Source: a virus
IMG/VR virus record: IMGVR_UViG_3300018410_000040
Span: 1-26,198 of that record
Strand: one strand, 5' to 3'
Length of the DNA stretch: 26,198 nt
Below, piece after piece: positions 2,081-26,138 of this stretch. The stretch's first letter is position 1; each line of letters begins with the position of its first letter. Made by a program: the position numbers and the translations under genes. The notes beneath the pieces are model-generated. The model saw only the letters and a list, made by a program, of their open reading frames with translations, had not been told where the DNA came from and ran no database searches.

Positions 2081-2779
2081 ATGAATTTTAATTATAAAGA
2101 ATTAAGTAAAACTATATTAGAAGCTACAAAAACTAAAAATAAAAATACAGATTTAATCGAAGTAATATCTGATATTATACGTAATGAAGTAGCAAAAATT
2201 AAAAGAGCTGACAAATATAAAGAAAAAATAAAAAAACAACAAGAAGATTTAAAAGAAAATAAATTAATTTTAGATAATCCTATGGATATTTTAAATAAAT
2301 TAAATGACGAATCAAATGACGAATCAAATGTTGAATTAAAAATTGACTCTTTAGAACAACGTATTTTTCAAGAACATGATGATGTTGATACTATAAATAT
2401 TTTTAATACTGTATCAGATATTAATAAATTAAATAATAAATTTAAAGAACACAAAACTGAAAAAGTAGAAGAGAAAATAAATACAACAAATTTAGAAAGA
2501 TTTCAAGTACGAGTTAAAATAAATTCAAATTTAAAAGTAAAACCTAAATTTCAAGTATTTAAAGAACCATCGGAAGATGTTGTTGGTTCTAATGGTTTAG
2601 TTGAAAGTACTTTTCATAATTTTTTATTTTTTATTGATTCAATTGATGAAGCAACAATTAGAAAACACATGACAGAAATATTTGAACCAGGACAAATGTC
2701 GTTTGATATTTCAGTAGTACCATTTGATTATATACCTGTACAATATAAAGAACTATGGAGAAATCAAACAACAATGTAA
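2081..2779 (+). CDS. Hypothetical protein, 232 aa, with acidic tandem-repeat linker
   Basis: Not recognised. Residues 1-65 are helical and Lys-rich (coiled-coil-like). Residues 66-150 are a low-complexity acidic linker containing an NDES NDES NVEL repeat. Residues 150-232 look like a compact domain with strands and a helix (FQVRVKINS; HNFLFFIDSIDEATIRKHM). It begins 2 nt after the small membrane protein, and its last 25 bases overlap the SLOG gene in another frame, so all three are likely translated together. A two-domain adaptor layout (helical N-terminus, linker, globular C-terminus) is visible, but no function can be assigned. Confidence 0.6.
   Translation: MNFNYKELSKTILEATKTKNKNTDLIEVISDIIRNEVAKIKRADKYKEKIKKQQEDLKENKLILDNPMDILNKLNDESNDESNVELKIDSLEQRIFQEHDDVDTINIFNTVSDINKLNNKFKEHKTEKVEEKINTTNLERFQVRVKINSNLKVKPKFQVFKEPSEDVVGSNGLVESTFHNFLFFIDSIDEATIRKHMTEIFEPGQMSFDISVVPFDYIPVQYKELWRNQTTM
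2302..2337 (+). repeat. 12-bp in-frame tandem repeat
   Basis: AAATGACGAATC occurs twice in direct succession (2302-2313, 2314-2325), followed by a diverged third unit AAATGTTGAATT. It encodes NDES-NDES-NVEL in the acidic linker and could expand or contract by slippage without a frameshift. Confidence 0.8.
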
Positions 2780-3282
2780 ATTATTTTACTGGTATTGGAT
2801 CTAGAGAAACACCAAAATCATTGATCAATGATATATCTTTGATCAATGATTTTTTATTTAAAAATAATTATATTTTAAGATCAGGTGGTGCTGGTGGTGC
2901 TGATACTTTTTTTGAAGATAATTGGAAAGGTAAAAAAGAAATATTTTTACCATGGAAAGGATTTAATAATAATAATTCAGAACTATATCAAATTAGTTCT
3001 GAATCAATGGTTTTAGCTGAAAAATTTCATCCAGCTTGGTCAAAATTATCTTTACCTGTTAAAAAATTAATGTCTAGAAATATTTGTCAAATTTTAGGAC
3101 AAAATTTAAATACACCAACCAATTTTGTTGTATGTTGGACAAAAGATGGTAAAGATACAGGTGGAACAGGACAAGCAATAAGATTAGCTCAATCTTTAAA
3201 TATACCAATATTTAATTTATATCATAGAGATAAAGCAATACAAGGAATAAGTGATTTTGTTAAACCTAGAAGTATTTTTTAA
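2755..3282 (+). CDS. SLOG-superfamily (DprA/YspA-like) nucleotide-binding protein
   Basis: A 175-aa Rossmann-like protein. The signature parts are FTGIGSRETP (11-20), RSGGAGGAD (42-50), a predicted strand VVCWTKDG (125-132) and the loop GGTGQAIRLA (136-145). These match the SLOG fold of DprA, YspA and related nucleotide-sensing proteins, in which the glycine loops bind a nucleotide or nucleotide-derived ligand. The family includes DNA-processing proteins and sensors of NAD-derived signals in anti-phage systems, so a phage copy could sense or sequester such a ligand; that is inference. The ATG at 2755 gives a natural start before the first Gly loop and overlaps the previous gene by 25 nt. Residues 22-33 carry a duplicated SLIND, written by a direct DNA repeat with TTGATCAATGAT at 2820-2850. 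Confidence 0.75.
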   Translation: MEKSNNNVNYFTGIGSRETPKSLINDISLINDFLFKNNYILRSGGAGGADTFFEDNWKGKKEIFLPWKGFNNNNSELYQISSESMVLAEKFHPAWSKLSLPVKKLMSRNICQILGQNLNTPTNFVVCWTKDGKDTGGTGQAIRLAQSLNIPIFNLYHRDKAIQGISDFVKPRSIF

Positions 3283-4649: not shown

Positions 4650-5300
4650 TTAATAATGTTCTGTAATAAATTCAAATTTTTGTTGAATATTTTTTTGAAT
4701 TTTAGATCTTCCATGAAATAATCTATTTTTTACTGTTTGTAAATTTATACCTAATATATCACATATTTCATTATATGAATGTCCATCAATATCACATAAC
4801 TTTACTATATTTTTATATTTAGGACCTAATTTATCAATTTCTTTTAATGTTTCATTATATTTCATCATAGAAATATTTTGTGATTCTAAATCAATATCTA
4901 ATTCATCTATTTTGGCATTAATATAATATTGCATAGCATTATTAGCATAATCTTCTGTTGATGAATTATCATTAATATCCACAACTAATGTTTTTGCATT
5001 ATCTTTTTTAAATTTACGACCTAAATTAATACCTATAATAAATAACCATGTACCAAAATTACTTTCTATTGATTTAGGTGTATAATTACTATTTTTTGTT
5101 TCGGGATCGAATTGGTGGATTTTATCAATAGATTGAATAAACGCTTTATTAGCTAAATCCTCAGCATCTAATTTATTAATATTTAATGCTTTTATTTTCC
5201 ATACTAGTTTCGGAAAATATTTGTTGTAAAATTTTGTAAAATTTTGTCCTGTTACTTCTTTAAATTTTTCTTCATAATTTAATTCTCTTTGATTGTTCAT
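4650..5300 (-). CDS. ECF-like RNA polymerase sigma factor (sigma-70 family)
   Basis: A 216-aa protein with two sigma domains and no region 1 or 3. Region 2 spans about residues 20-100: FYNKYFPKLVWKI, AEDLANKAFIQSIDKIHQFDPE, then FGTWLFIIGINLGRKFKKDN, the region 2.3/2.4 pattern that melts and reads the -10 area. Region 4 spans about 155-205 and ends in the helix-turn-helix SYNEICDILGINLQTVKNRLFHGRSKIQK. The linker (100-150) is longer than in many ECF factors and acidic. It should direct host core RNA polymerase to phage promoters, and a late-gene role comparable with T4 gp55 is an inference. It is divergent from the primase gene across a 203-nt gap and followed by the 355-aa gene. The family call is strong. 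Confidence 0.85.
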   Translation of the reverse strand: MNNQRELNYEEKFKEVTGQNFTKFYNKYFPKLVWKIKALNINKLDAEDLANKAFIQSIDKIHQFDPETKNSNYTPKSIESNFGTWLFIIGINLGRKFKKDNAKTLVVDINDNSSTEDYANNAMQYYINAKIDELDIDLESQNISMMKYNETLKEIDKLGPKYKNIVKLCDIDGHSYNEICDILGINLQTVKNRLFHGRSKIQKNIQQKFEFITEHY

Positions 5301-5503: not shown

Positions 5504-6685
5504 ATGTTAGAATCAATAAATAAAGAATTTTTAGTAACTTCTATACAATCTATATTAGATAAAGTACATACAAATCCAGAAAAAAGAAAGATAAATTATA
5601 AAAAAATAGATCGTATTTCTTTTGCTTGTCCTATATGTGGTGATAGTTCTAAAGATTCACACCAAAAACGTGGACATTTATTTTTAAATAATTTGTATTA
5701 TAAATGTTATAATGAAGATTGTAGATCTACTTTTACAAAATTATGTAAAGATTATAATGTACATATAGATCCTAATATGAAAATGGAAATTATAAATTAT
5801 ATAGATACACAATTTAATTTATACCATAAAGCAGATAATGATTGGTTTATTTCTAATTTTGATAAATTAATATCTATGGACGATTTAGAAAATTGGTTTA
5901 AATCTGGTAAAGGACCATTAAAAAATTTTAAAAAAGTAGAATTTGGTTCTTCTGTGTATTTTTATTTATTAAATCGTGGAATTCCAAAAGATCTAATAGA
6001 AAATAATTTTTATGAAGGTCTTAAAATTAAAGGTAAATGGGCAGAACCTTATGTATTATTTATAAATAAAATAGGTGATAAAATTATAGGTATGCAAGAA
6101 CGTAATATAGAATCAACGTTTAGACGATTCACTATTTGGTCGTTTAAAGATTTATATGATTCTATTTATGAAACAGATTTAGATATTATAGAATCAATAT
6201 CATATAATAAATTATCTTATTTATATAATATTCTAAATATAAATTTCGAAAAAACTATTACAATTTTTGAAGGATATATAGATTCTATATTCATGCCTAA
6301 TTCAGTCGGTGCTGTTGGTATTAATACAGATTTTGGAATATTTACTGAAAATGAATTAGATGTTAGATTCTTTTTTGATAATGATAATATAGGAAAAAGA
6401 AAATCAGATAAATGGTTAAAGAAGGGTTTTAATGTGTTTTTATGGGAAAAGTATATAAATCATTTAGCCAAAGATAATATTGATCCTCATACGTTTAAAA
6501 GATGGTTTAATTTGAATATAAAAGATATGAATTCATTGATGAAACATTTACCTACAGATTACAAAAATTTACTACCATTTTTTTCAATAGATAAATCAGA
6601 TACTATTTATCTAAATTATGAAAAAAAATATAAAAAGAAAATTGAAGAAAAAAATATAAATACATACGAATGGAAAATAAAATAA
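5504..6685 (+). CDS. DNA primase (zinc ribbon plus Toprim)
   Basis: A 393-aa DnaG-type primase that should make RNA primers for lagging-strand synthesis of phage DNA. An N-terminal zinc ribbon is formed by C42-x2-C45 and C68-x4-C73 (ACPICGD; KCYNEDC). The catalytic Toprim fold has its glutamate at E256 (IFEGYIDS) and the metal-binding pair D292/D294 (FFFDNDNIGK). The length is similar to T4-type primase. No helicase domain is fused, so a separate replicative helicase must lie elsewhere. The start at 5504 follows an A-rich leader, and the C-terminal Lys-rich tail overlaps the next gene by 16 nt. Confidence 0.85.
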   Translation: MLESINKEFLVTSIQSILDKVHTNPEKRKINYKKIDRISFACPICGDSSKDSHQKRGHLFLNNLYYKCYNEDCRSTFTKLCKDYNVHIDPNMKMEIINYIDTQFNLYHKADNDWFISNFDKLISMDDLENWFKSGKGPLKNFKKVEFGSSVYFYLLNRGIPKDLIENNFYEGLKIKGKWAEPYVLFINKIGDKIIGMQERNIESTFRRFTIWSFKDLYDSIYETDLDIIESISYNKLSYLYNILNINFEKTITIFEGYIDSIFMPNSVGAVGINTDFGIFTENELDVRFFFDNDNIGKRKSDKWLKKGFNVFLWEKYINHLAKDNIDPHTFKRWFNLNIKDMNSLMKHLPTDYKNLLPFFSIDKSDTIYLNYEKKYKKKIEEKNINTYEWKIK

Positions 6686-10841: not shown

Positions 10842-11225
10842 TTAATATGTATTTCCTTTTTCGTGGTTACATGTATAACACATTACTTGGTAATTAGACA
10901 TTATATTTTTACCACCTTTAGATTTTGGTATGATATGATCTTTAGTAAATAAAAGTTCTTTTCCATATATATCATATCCGTATAGATTAAAATGATATGT
11001 CTTGTCATGTTGATGTTTTTCTTTTCTAAAGAAAACACCATTATTTTTACAGTTAACACAAGTTACACCATCACGTTTAAATAATCTATATCTTTGTGAT
11101 TCCATTTTCATTAAATCACCATCAAAGATAACATAATGTTTTTCTCCTGTATATGGAATTACATTATCTAAAACTTCATTAATAGTATATGATTCTTTTA
11201 TATCTATTTTTTTTAAATTACTCAT
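10842..11225 (-). CDS. HNH endonuclease
   Basis: A 127-aa protein with a zinc-stabilised HNH (beta-beta-alpha metal) nuclease at its C-terminus. It shows C56-x2-C59 (CVNC), then TKDHIIPKSKGGKN with D96-H97, the conserved N111, and C116-x2-C119 followed by NH (CYTCNHEKGN). The order C-C, DH, N, C-C-N-H is that of standard HNH endonucleases. Residues 1-50 form a short N-terminal extension with a possible strand region (KHYVIFDGDLMKM). Its ATG overlaps the stop of the RpoD-like sigma gene as ATGA, so it is translated together with the sigma factor. A free-standing homing-type nuclease or a DNA-processing enzyme are both possible. Confidence 0.82.
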   Translation of the reverse strand: MSNLKKIDIKESYTINEVLDNVIPYTGEKHYVIFDGDLMKMESQRYRLFKRDGVTCVNCKNNGVFFRKEKHQHDKTYHFNLYGYDIYGKELLFTKDHIIPKSKGGKNIMSNYQVMCYTCNHEKGNTY

Positions 11226-12196
11226 AATGAATATTTTAATATTAAATTTTTACTATATTCATTATTTTTTTTTATTAAATTATCGGATATTTTTTTATTG
11301 TAATTATTTCTTTCAATATCTCTAATTTCATTTTTTGATAATGTAATATCAATATTATTATAATTTCTTAATTTTATTTTTAATTTTCTAAAAATTTTAT
11401 TTAAAACTGGTTTAAAATTAGAATAATTGATATTAAATTTATCAGATATTTCTTTTTTAGATAAAATATCTCTATCAAAAATTCCAAAATATGATATTAT
11501 AATTTCTCTATCTGTATATGATAACTCTGATATGGCATTTTGAATAATATCTTTTTTTTCATTTATCAATAATACATCCATAGGTGTTTTTGAATCTGAA
11601 CTAATTAAATTTCCTAATTCTTCATCACTATCATTAAACACATCATTTAATGATTTAATATTTTCAGTAGATTTAATATATTCATATCCTATTATTTCAT
11701 TTTTTTTATAATATTCATCTAAATATGGTTTTACATTAGATGTACTATATAATTGTTCTAATTCATTTATTTTTTTATTTATAGAAGATAATAAAGTTAT
11801 TTTATTTGATGGTAATCTAATAGATCGTCCATTTTTAGTTATATATGCTAAAATAGATTGTCTGATCCACCACACGGCGTAAGATATAAATTTAAAACCA
11901 TGAGTACTATTAAATAAATTAACAGCTTTAATTAATCCAATATTTCCTTCATTAATTAAATCTTCTAATTCTATACCTTTAATATATTGATATTGTTTAG
12001 CAACCGAAATAACAAATCTTGTATTATGCCTAATTATTTTTATTTTAGAATTTTCACAATTATTTTCTTTTATATTTTTAAATAATTCTTCTTCATTAAA
12101 TGATATATCATTAATAGAATAAATATCTTTAAAATATCTAGATATATTATTTGTTTTTTTAGATAATATATTTGTTCCTATTTTTAATTGTCGCAT
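11222..12196 (-). CDS. RpoD-like sigma factor of Bacteroidota type, phage-encoded
   Basis: A 324-aa sigma-70 protein. It begins MRQLKI and continues with RHNTRFVISVAKQYQ (56-70), DLINEGNIGLIKAV (79-92) and FKFISYAVWWIRQSI (101-115), which is close to the region 1.2-2.4 text of the Bacteroidota housekeeping sigma. Region 3 is present but diverged (120-210). Region 4 (about 215-275) is recognisable (ISELSYTDREIIISYFGI; LSKKEISDKFNI). However, the recognition helix, which in the host factor reads close to TRERVRQIKEKAIRRLK, here reads NYSNFKPVLNKIFRKLK. About 45 extra residues follow region 4. It should compete with the host sigma and probably reads a different upstream element. It ends with TGA in an ATGA overlap with the HNH gene, and its leader carries a 28-bp hairpin. 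Confidence 0.87.
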   Translation of the reverse strand: MRQLKIGTNILSKKTNNISRYFKDIYSINDISFNEEELFKNIKENNCENSKIKIIRHNTRFVISVAKQYQYIKGIELEDLINEGNIGLIKAVNLFNSTHGFKFISYAVWWIRQSILAYITKNGRSIRLPSNKITLLSSINKKINELEQLYSTSNVKPYLDEYYKKNEIIGYEYIKSTENIKSLNDVFNDSDEELGNLISSDSKTPMDVLLINEKKDIIQNAISELSYTDREIIISYFGIFDRDILSKKEISDKFNINYSNFKPVLNKIFRKLKIKLRNYNNIDITLSKNEIRDIERNNYNKKISDNLIKKNNEYSKNLILKYSL

Positions 12197-23981: not shown

Positions 23982-24024
23982 AAAAAAAAAAACACATTCT
24001 AATTAGAATGTGTTTTTTTTTTTT
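23982..24024. terminator. Bidirectional terminator between convergent units
   Basis: Perfect palindrome AAAACACATTCTAATTAGAATGTGTTTT extended by A and T runs on either side. It stands between the plus-strand virion block and the minus-strand PARP block and can stop both. Confidence 0.88.
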
Positions 24025-24063: not shown

Positions 24064-24561
24064 TTAATCATTGAACTCTATTGTATTAACATCATTCAAT
24101 TTAGCAAAGAATCTAAATTTTTTCTTTTGTCCTGGTAATGTGGCATAAAAAGAAAGAGAAGAATATTCTGACATACCAGCACCTTTTCTAATATAAATTC
24201 TATCTACTTTAAGAATAGTTCCTATAGGAAATGTAATAGGTTCTAAATTTTCTTCAGGAAGCAATTCAGAGATATTTTCTTCAAATATTTTTATTGATTT
24301 TTCTTTGGCTTGATTCAAATCTAACATTGACATATCTTTTGTATACAATTCATCTATAATAGAAGATATTTTTTTAGATTGAAGACATTGACCATTGAAT
24401 CCTAAACTTTCGATATAGTTATTTCGATACGAATAACTGACATTATAATCAGGATAAAAAATTTCAACAAGCTTATTATTTCTGTGTTCTAAAACGAGTT
24501 TAAAATTCCATTCTTTAGAAAGAGAAAATTCAAATCCTATTTCCGGTATAAACATTTTCAT
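24064..24561 (-). CDS. Hypothetical protein, 165 aa
   Basis: Not recognised by name. The first 55 residues form a strand-rich segment (FELSLSKEWNFKLVLEHRNNK in outline); a helical middle (KKISSIIDELY..EENISELLPEEN) follows; and the C-terminus from about 108 (FPIGTILKVDRIYIRKGAGMSEYSS) ends as a small beta barrel (FRFFAKLNDVNTIEF). The last part recurs in phage proteins of unknown function as far as I can judge from memory. TATATTTA, one base off the -7 consensus, lies upstream in the gap to the 69-aa gene. Its stop directly precedes the PARP relic in frame, so it may once have been joined to that tail. Confidence 0.6.
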   Translation of the reverse strand: MKMFIPEIGFEFSLSKEWNFKLVLEHRNNKLVEIFYPDYNVSYSYRNNYIESLGFNGQCLQSKKISSIIDELYTKDMSMLDLNQAKEKSIKIFEENISELLPEENLEPITFPIGTILKVDRIYIRKGAGMSEYSSLSFYATLPGQKKKFRFFAKLNDVNTIEFND

Positions 24562-24594: not shown

Positions 24595-24804
24595 TTATAA
24601 TTCTGTACCATCCCATGCAAATATTACTTCTTTAAGATGTTCTATATCTTTAATCTTGCATATAAGTTCTTCACACATACCATCATCGGTAAAGAATAAT
24701 TCTTGTGTTTTGATATTGAATAAAAAATCATGTGAATCATGTAAAAATTCATGTCCATTGATTTGATTGAAATTGCAAAATTCTAATTGTTCTTTAGTGA
24801 CCAT
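24595..24804 (-). CDS. Hypothetical acidic protein, 69 aa
   Basis: Not recognised. It is small, acidic and free of membrane segments, with patterns FLHDSHDFLFNIKTQELFFTD and a C-terminal IEHLKEVIFAWDGTEL. An exact TAnnTTTG promoter on the minus strand 17 nt before its ATG supports a real gene. The leader shows no Shine-Dalgarno sequence. It is followed after 33 nt by the 165-aa gene, probably in the same transcript that ends at the 23982-24024 terminator. Confidence 0.6.
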   Translation of the reverse strand: MVTKEQLEFCNFNQINGHEFLHDSHDFLFNIKTQELFFTDDGMCEELICKIKDIEHLKEVIFAWDGTEL

Positions 24805-24844: not shown

Positions 24845-24886
24845 AAAAAGAAAAAGAGACATATTAATATGTCTCTTTTTCTTTTT
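24845..24886. terminator. Bidirectional 21-bp terminator overlapping the PARP stop
   Basis: Perfect palindrome over 42 bases centred at 24865/24866, core AAAGAGACATATTAATATGTCTCTTT. It shares bases 24885-24886 with the TAA stop of the PARP gene, so the hairpin starts inside the stop codon. Confidence 0.85.
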
Positions 24887-26138
24887 ATGCATTTACAATA
24901 ACAAGATATTTAATAGTTGATTGTTCTGATTTATATACAATATATTCGTTATTTCTAAGATCAATTCCACCTTCGGCGAAAACAGAGTCATATCCATCTT
25001 TACTTAGAATAGAATTTGATAATTTATAACATGATGAGTCATGTCGTTTAATATGTTTTTGTTCACCTACATGAACACTATATAATGCTAATACAGCTTC
25101 TGATTGTGATCCATTTGCAAAATATGAACCTCTTCCACTAGTATACCCAAACGATTTTTGAAATTTATCGGCAAAATAAATACCATCACCAAACATAGAA
25201 CCAGAATGAACAGCATTAGAAGGTCTAATTAATAAACCTGTTGTAATGATTGACCACCAATTTTCATTTCTTGAACCGTGCCAGAATAATTCTTCTTTTT
25301 TATTTTTTGCTAATTTAAAATTAGAGTTATATTTTTCTTGAGTTGTATTATTAACTACTTCATATGCCTGTTTGAATTTATGAGAATTATCAGCCATTAA
25401 TTTTTTAATAGTATCTATAACTGATTGTTCTGTAACTTCTTTAAGATCTAAACCTGAAGATTTAATAATATCAGTTTCTAATTCTTGTTCTGTTTCATCA
25501 TCAATATCCTGAGATGATGCGGTGTTTAAAGATACTTGTCCTGCCATTACATCTAATGTATCTTGTTCTGATGTAATTATATTATTTTTTTGTTCTTGTA
25601 AATCAGAATCAGAATTAACTAAATGATCTCTTACTTGTTTCATTTTTCTAGGAACAACAGCAAAGAATTTAAGTAATAATTGATTAAATTCATCAATATT
25701 ATCTTTAGTTAAATTATAAGCTACTAATTCATTTAGAATATTTTGAGCATAATCTATTTGTTTTTGACTTACTTCTTCGGATGTAACATTATAATTTTCA
25801 GCAATACTACCTTTAGCCCATCCTTGTAATTTTTTAACAATTTCAACAACTAAAGGAGTTCTAGATGGTAAAAAATCTTTAAAAACCGCTTTTCTTTTAG
25901 TAGTTGTTCCATCAGTATTAGATTCTACTATAAAAAGTTCAGTTAGATCTTCATAACCTTTTTTTGTTTTTGCTTTAATAGTACTATCCCATTTATGCAT
26001 AGGATATGTTTTAGTTTGTGGATTAGAACCAACTCTACCATATTCTGCTGTAAATGTATCATTTTCATTATCAGTCATCGTATAATATTTATTATTATTT
26101 GATGTACTAGTCATAATTAATTTTACTACTCTTGCCAT
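24885..26138 (-). CDS. PARP1-like ADP-ribosyltransferase with WGR and regulatory domains
   Basis: A 417-aa protein with three PARP1-type parts. Residues 1-70 are a WGR-like domain (KYYTMTDNENDTFTAEYGRVG..QTKTYP), with the usual Trp replaced by Tyr. About 85-175 resemble the PARP helical regulatory domain (SQKQIDYAQNILNELV; FNQLLLKFFAVVPRKM). About 195-250 are a linker. From about 275 comes the catalytic fold with the triad H287 (FWHGSRNENWWSI), Y321 (GSMFGDGIYFAD) and E398 (NNEYIVYKSEQ), all intact, so poly- or oligo-ADP-ribosylation from NAD+ is expected. Zinc fingers and BRCT are absent. In human PARP1 the WGR and regulatory domains tie activity to DNA breaks; that this holds here is inference. 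Phage T4 uses unrelated ADP-ribosyltransferases to modify host RNA polymerase. Confidence 0.88.
   Translation of the reverse strand: MARVVKLIMTSTSNNNKYYTMTDNENDTFTAEYGRVGSNPQTKTYPMHKWDSTIKAKTKKGYEDLTELFIVESNTDGTTTKRKAVFKDFLPSRTPLVVEIVKKLQGWAKGSIAENYNVTSEEVSQKQIDYAQNILNELVAYNLTKDNIDEFNQLLLKFFAVVPRKMKQVRDHLVNSDSDLQEQKNNIITSEQDTLDVMAGQVSLNTASSQDIDDETEQELETDIIKSSGLDLKEVTEQSVIDTIKKLMADNSHKFKQAYEVVNNTTQEKYNSNFKLAKNKKEELFWHGSRNENWWSIITTGLLIRPSNAVHSGSMFGDGIYFADKFQKSFGYTSGRGSYFANGSQSEAVLALYSVHVGEQKHIKRHDSSCYKLSNSILSKDGYDSVFAEGGIDLRNNEYIVYKSEQSTIKYLVIVNA

Follow-up and report, generated by a model that had tools for sequence, protein, structure and literature searches.

PARPs encoded by phages were reported by Perina et al. 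in 2014 from Cellulophaga phage phi4:1 and Aeromonas phage Aeh1 (PMC4245714), and a report of 2021 names the protein of phage XacN1 and proposes a transfer of longer chains by phage PARPs (PMC7824862). In 21,191 viral proteomes that were surveyed, the ADP-ribosyltransferases (ARTs) found most often include PARTs (PARPs, the H-Y-[EDQ] clade) as well as the Alt and Mod families of the R-S-E type (PMC9503650). Thus, the view that most known phage ARTs are R-S-E enzymes, which was put forward in a sequence-only reading of the locus described here, is outdated. With reports from 2014, 2021 and 2022 and annotated examples in several GenBank phages, phage PARPs are not a new kind of protein. A biochemical study of any phage PARP was not found in literature searches limited to open-licence papers. 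There are characterised bacterial enzymes of the same layout, HaPARP and CdPARP, and these are described as DNA-dependent PARPs (PMC5966428).

The locus is a stretch of viral DNA of 26,198 nucleotides from IMG/VR, which is called the window throughout. Our favoured reading, which we hold to be somewhat probable, is that it encodes a catalytically intact phage ART of the PARP1/2/3 type that responds to nucleic-acid ends, whose modification is reversible and whose nicotinamide product is recycled by the phage. To the earlier reports this analysis adds the abundance of the family, the co-occurrence of NAD+-salvage and hydrolase genes, a winged-helix neighbour and, in some phages, an upstream macrodomain gene.

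Domains, active site and predicted fold

An uninterrupted minus-strand reading frame of 417 amino acids occupies positions 24885..26138, and its product (P0001) is identified as a WGR-helical-ART PARP-like protein by Pfam, PHROG and PDB matches and by its predicted fold. Pfam matches above the curated cut-offs are found for PARP (PF00644, 1.6e-23, residues 252-415) and for WGR (PF05406, 4e-7, residues 11-62), and the profile of PHROG 23333 matches over the full length (4.5e-58, residues 13-414). In a phmmer comparison with PDB sequences, human PARP1 aligns with residues 119-413 (7.2e-16). PARP_reg scores 0.038 on P0001, below its cut-off, and is found by Pfam in only 2 of 56 relatives.

All three domains are nevertheless delimited on the minus strand. 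The predicted WGR domain covers residues ~4-69 (25932..26129), as judged from Pfam, the model and conservation, and the ART (PARP catalytic) domain is placed by Pfam and the model at residues ~224-417 (24888..25469). Between them, a helical regulatory-type domain is predicted at residues ~92-214 (25497..25865) from the helices of the model and from fold and profile alignments.

The codons for H287 (25278..25280), Y321 (25176..25178) and E398 (24945..24947) specify residues that align with the PARP catalytic triad. None of the 78 non-identical relatives departs from these three residues or from K328, Y332, G34 and R35, and the intact H-Y-E triad proposed earlier is thereby upheld. Such a triad is compatible with, rather than proof of, the formation of poly(ADP-ribose) chains by P0001. 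Within the WGR domain, the blocks NNNK, Y-G-R and KGY are kept across the 78 relatives. The WGR motif itself reads Y33-G34-R35, and its first position is Y in 63 of the 78 and W in 9; Y is usual at this position in bacteria (PMC5966428). The helical domain retains L195 in 77 and D196 in 76 of the same 78 sequences.

An AlphaFold2 model of P0001, built from 56 relatives, has a pLDDT of 88.7 and a pTM of 0.83. Residues 1..417 of this model align to residues 551..1007 of human PARP1 on a DNA double-strand break (4dqy_C; Z 26.6, 364 residues, 3.7 A), and the top Foldseek ranks are taken by PARP1-DNA and PARP2-DNA complexes. The WGR elements in the model are strands at residues 4-11, 15-23, 28-35 and 41-46 and a helix at 47-59, and the helices of the helical domain lie at 95-115, 125-140, 145-161 and 180-214. 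This helical region aligns by fold to the helical domains of PARP1/2/3, and a profile of the 56 relatives aligns to PARP2 through the helical domain (2.1e-30). Because the fold match to PARP1 is full length, the helical domain missed by Pfam is present in the model; Cytophagales PARPs likewise have helical domains that Pfam misses (PMC5966428). For residues 1-175, on which the proposal of WGR and regulatory parts had hinged, there is thus both a WGR match and fold agreement with PARP1. By its sequence and predicted structure, P0001 is an ART of the H-Y-E clade with the WGR, helical and ART domains in the order of PARP1/2/3, as had been proposed.

Phage source, family size and origin

The window carries genes for a T4-type large terminase, a contractile tail sheath, two sigma factors and primase, and has a GC content of about 15-27%. 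The terminase and contractile-tail-sheath genes identify it as phage DNA, which bears out the earlier description of the PARP frame as phage-encoded. Judged by its genes, the source is a myovirus-like phage, probably a large bacteriophage with a host among the Bacteroidota. Among long relatives, the closest is an IMG/VR contig of 313,708 bases (G001), with identities to the window of 73% for terminase, 59% for sheath and 65% for PARP. The other closest relative (G002, 110 kb) encodes a PARP that is 59% identical to that of the window. The two sigma-70-family factors (4650-5300 and 11222-12196) are distinct, one being ECF-like and the other RpoD/RpoS-like. By eye, YspA/SLOG-like proteins with a GGAxGADTxxE motif are encoded at 2755-3282 in the window and at L004:19953-20498 in another phage locus; Pfam leaves the window copy unconfirmed and gives only a hint (0.04) for the other.

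The PARP gene lies on the strand opposite to the structural genes. A strong terminator-like hairpin with a 19-bp stem, a 4-nt loop and a T-rich tail (24845..24886, minus strand) overlaps its stop codon, which suggests that transcription terminates with PARP. There are four terminator-like sites in the window where 0.3 would be expected. At 23982-24023, a perfect inverted repeat with A/T tails lies between converging genes and forms a bidirectional terminator-like hairpin. Two small minus-strand genes downstream of PARP (24064-24561 and 24595-24804) have no match to a Pfam family and no winged-helix match, and a PARP partner downstream in the window was rejected on this basis. Upstream of PARP the window stops after 60 bases, so that the neighbourhood on this side is outside view, and an exact 46-base probe for sequence beyond the window end gave no match.

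From PARP, the large terminase gene is ~6 kb and the tail sheath gene ~2 kb away, and the PARP gene of G001 is within ~8 kb of its terminase gene. Nearness to packaging genes has been taken as a sign of head packaging (PMC9503650), and phage PARPs have been suggested to act on host proteins like other phage ARTs (PMC7824862). These points would fit a host-takeover transferase comparable to T4 Alt, ModA and ModB, which would modify host RNA polymerase and ribosomal or other proteins independently of nucleic-acid ends and might be packaged in the virion. We consider this role unlikely for P0001. The opposite strand and the separate terminator-like hairpin speak against it, the neighbours of PARP in many relatives are RNA-repair genes rather than capsid genes, and neither a packaging signal nor a fusion to a head protein was seen. 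In addition, a T4-like role would leave the retention of the WGR and helical domains unexplained.

A tblastn search with PARP against the annotated collection yields 15 records, and an alignment-based scan of IMG/VR yields 159 relatives. Phage PARPs are therefore far commoner in uncultured phages than the few annotated examples indicate. The best 80 of the 159 IMG/VR relatives were retrieved and, together with annotated phages and bacterial relatives, they form 64 clusters at 90% identity. In a tree, the window PARP groups with two phage sequences (L017 and L018) at 100/100 support inside phage-only branches, and the Bacteroidota PARPs come together, with weak support (74/65), in a single group that lies among phage sequences. 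This placement disfavours the view that the gene was recently captured from a host. The existence of close relatives in Bacteroidota hosts (44-49% identity) could still be taken to mean that the gene is inactive or ornamental and has been kept only briefly after such a capture. However, the frame is intact, the triad and NAD+-site residues do not vary among the 78 relatives, and the homologues are rare in Bacteroidota, with strong matches in 6 of 395 sampled genomes. Together with the phage-only branches, these observations leave the idea of an inactive relic largely refuted and very improbable.

Accompanying genes and a possible mechanism

The occurrence of NAD+ and ADP-ribose genes was compared between 37 PARP-bearing records and 16 PARP-free records picked by terminase relatedness. 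NAPRTase/NAMPT (PF04095) is found in 24 of the 37 and in 1 of the 16 (Fisher p 7e-5), in a comparison where many records are fragments and the PARP-free set is one terminase lineage, so that the co-occurrence could reflect common descent instead of function. When only records of 80-233 kb are considered, the counts are 14/25 and 0/15 (p 3e-4). Macro domains occur in 16/37 against 1/16, ADP-ribosylglycohydrolases in 7/37 against 0/16, and one or the other in 19/37 against 1/16 (p 0.002). The co-occurrence of PARP with salvage and hydrolase genes is thus an association across records, drawn from a one-lineage comparison. The window is too short to show hydrolase or salvage genes. By sequence, G001 and G002 each encode a nicotinamide phosphoribosyltransferase and an ADP-ribosylglycohydrolase, and the latter enzymes carry TDD and GGD/SGD metal-site motifs.

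Genes that recur near the PARPs of relatives encode RNA ligases, DNA ligase, an RlaP-type nucleotidyltransferase and CCA-type enzymes; none of the recurrent neighbours (ligases, nucleotidyltransferases, macrodomain, NAD+ genes) is visible in the window. In seven phage loci, the end of a macrodomain-like gene overlaps the PARP start or lies within ~50 bases of it (L081:7526-7945, L082:7501-7980, L083:7557-7967, L084:4053-4508, L085:3841-4263, L086:7485-7904 and L092:7498-7956), an arrangement that resembles a writer-eraser gene pair. A related macrodomain-like gene is located ~0.8 kb upstream of PARP in L089. In a 482-kb phage (L003), genes for an adenylyltransferase, a NUDIX protein and NAMPT lie within 9 kb of PARP (L003:13692-17368). 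In the same phage, visual inspection suggests another ADP-ribosyltransferase in a short frame (6071-6430), which has no Pfam match. In one bacterial locus, an ADP-ribosylglycohydrolase gene (L013:4014-4787) is divergent from PARP and just upstream of it.

In the favoured end-responsive reading, the WGR domain would bind an end of a nucleic acid; DNA breaks, which are plentiful during phage replication and packaging, are the probable ligand. End binding would loosen the helical domain, which would otherwise block access of NAD+. The H-Y-E site would then use NAD+ to ADP-ribosylate the enzyme, neighbouring proteins or the bound end, with release of nicotinamide. A phage ADP-ribosylglycohydrolase or macrodomain hydrolases could remove the ADP-ribose mark, and a phage nicotinamide phosphoribosyltransferase could recycle the nicotinamide. 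We infer that the enzyme is active and end-dependent, that it carries out poly- rather than mono-ADP-ribosylation of such targets, and that PARP is linked to these other genes. By analogy, a DNA-end switch in P0001 is plausible because HaPARP and CdPARP, with the same layout, are described as DNA-dependent (PMC5966428). Against the end-responsive reading, the PARP genes of many relatives are near genes for RNA ligases and nucleotidyltransferases and not only near those for DNA functions, and the zinc fingers of human PARP1 are absent from P0001. These fingers provide most of the break recognition by human PARP1; PARP2 and PARP3 also lack them.

The RNA ligase, RlaP and CCA-type genes close to PARP in many relatives could also point to counter-defence, wherein P0001 would ADP-ribosylate a host immune effector or the ends made by a host nuclease, and the salvage and hydrolase genes would independently counter defences that deplete NAD+. 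Phage salvage genes are generally taken as counters to NAD+ depletion (PMC12774641, PMC9503650), and AcrIF11 is a phage ART active against CRISPR. However, PARP itself consumes NAD+, no defence target is known, and the salvage-gene association was seen only in PARP-bearing records with an imperfect control. We judge this role improbable, somewhat more so than host takeover.

There is also a recurrent protein neighbour. With Microscilla L015 set aside, all eight Bacteroidota loci that were examined (L012/L190, L013, L014 and L191-L195) encode, just downstream of PARP, a domain of ~70 residues with the motif TTTLEVKxxLRxxGYWAxQxxVS. Pfam names no family for this protein, and its model (pLDDT 88.8) is a winged helix that matches mostly winged-helix regulators, with Z up to 9.7. 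In the bacterium of L014 the winged-helix domain is fused to a WGR domain. Winged-helix-like genes are found near PARP in nine phage loci (L003, L004, L018, L024, L025, L052, L056, L090 and L093), and gp030 of phi4:1 (L005:9115-9579), which lies beside the PARP gp031 and outside the profile-building set, matches the winged-helix profile. Of the 37 phage records with PARP, 11 match this profile (alignment A5), against 0 of the 16 without PARP; the association is no longer significant (p 0.15) once the six profile-building records are set aside. G002 has a match ~2.5 kb from PARP, and there is none in G001 or in the window, which ends 60 bases upstream of PARP. Seven of the 395 Bacteroidota genomes have the protein, and these include all six with strong PARP matches. 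This count is partly circular because the profile rows came from PARP neighbours; the non-circular part is that only one of the other 389 genomes carries it. The winged-helix protein looks like a conserved PARP partner.

A broader proposal, which we regard as possible though doubtful, is that an end-sensing PARP, its dedicated winged-helix partner, a macrodomain or ADP-ribosylglycohydrolase removal enzyme and nicotinamide recycling constitute a mobile module common to Bacteroidota and their large phages. If so, a phage would run a complete reversible ADP-ribosylation circuit. The co-occurrence of removal and salvage genes and the winged-helix neighbour provide hints to the function of prokaryotic PARPs, including those of bacteria. 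P0001, with complete domains and a confident model, is a good member of the family for testing.

Comparison with known systems

T4 Alt, ModA and ModB are phage ADP-ribosyltransferases like P0001, but they belong to the R-S-E class and lack WGR and helical domains. Membership of P0001 in this type was rejected on account of its H-Y-E active site. Closer in architecture are the full-length homologues of Xanthomonas phage XacN1 (ORF414, BBA65562.1), Stenotrophomonas phages RAS14 and CM1, and Klebsiella phages 05F01, FBKp34 and KP13-16, which possess all three domains; for that of FBKp34, the annotation itself names WGR, regulatory and catalytic domains. These proteins are 25-30% identical to P0001, and they form a separate branch in phages of Gammaproteobacteria.

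The PARPs of Cellulophaga phages phi4:1 (gp031) and phi17:2, which belong to PHROG 23333 and are annotated as PARPs, are 34% identical to P0001 over 95% of the length and have the same layout. Their genes adjoin those for a CCA-type tRNA nucleotidyltransferase, a DNA ligase and the winged-helix protein (gp030), whereas the window has no winged-helix match. The PARPs of Bacteroidota (Saprospiraceae, Cytophagales and Microscilla) are 41-49% identical and also share the layout, but they are chromosomal.

Identity to the human PARPs is ~22%. P0001 differs from them in having no zinc fingers, BRCT domain or basic N-terminal tail, in the Y that begins its WGR motif and in its PARP_reg score below the Pfam cut-off. 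Yet it shares with PARP3 and with the WGR-HD-ART part of PARP2 and PARP1 the domain order, the whole-chain fold, the H-Y-E triad, the (W/Y)GR motif and the NNNK(Y/F)Y block, and PARP2 has NNNKYY at the same place as the NNNK block in the WGR domain of the phage family.
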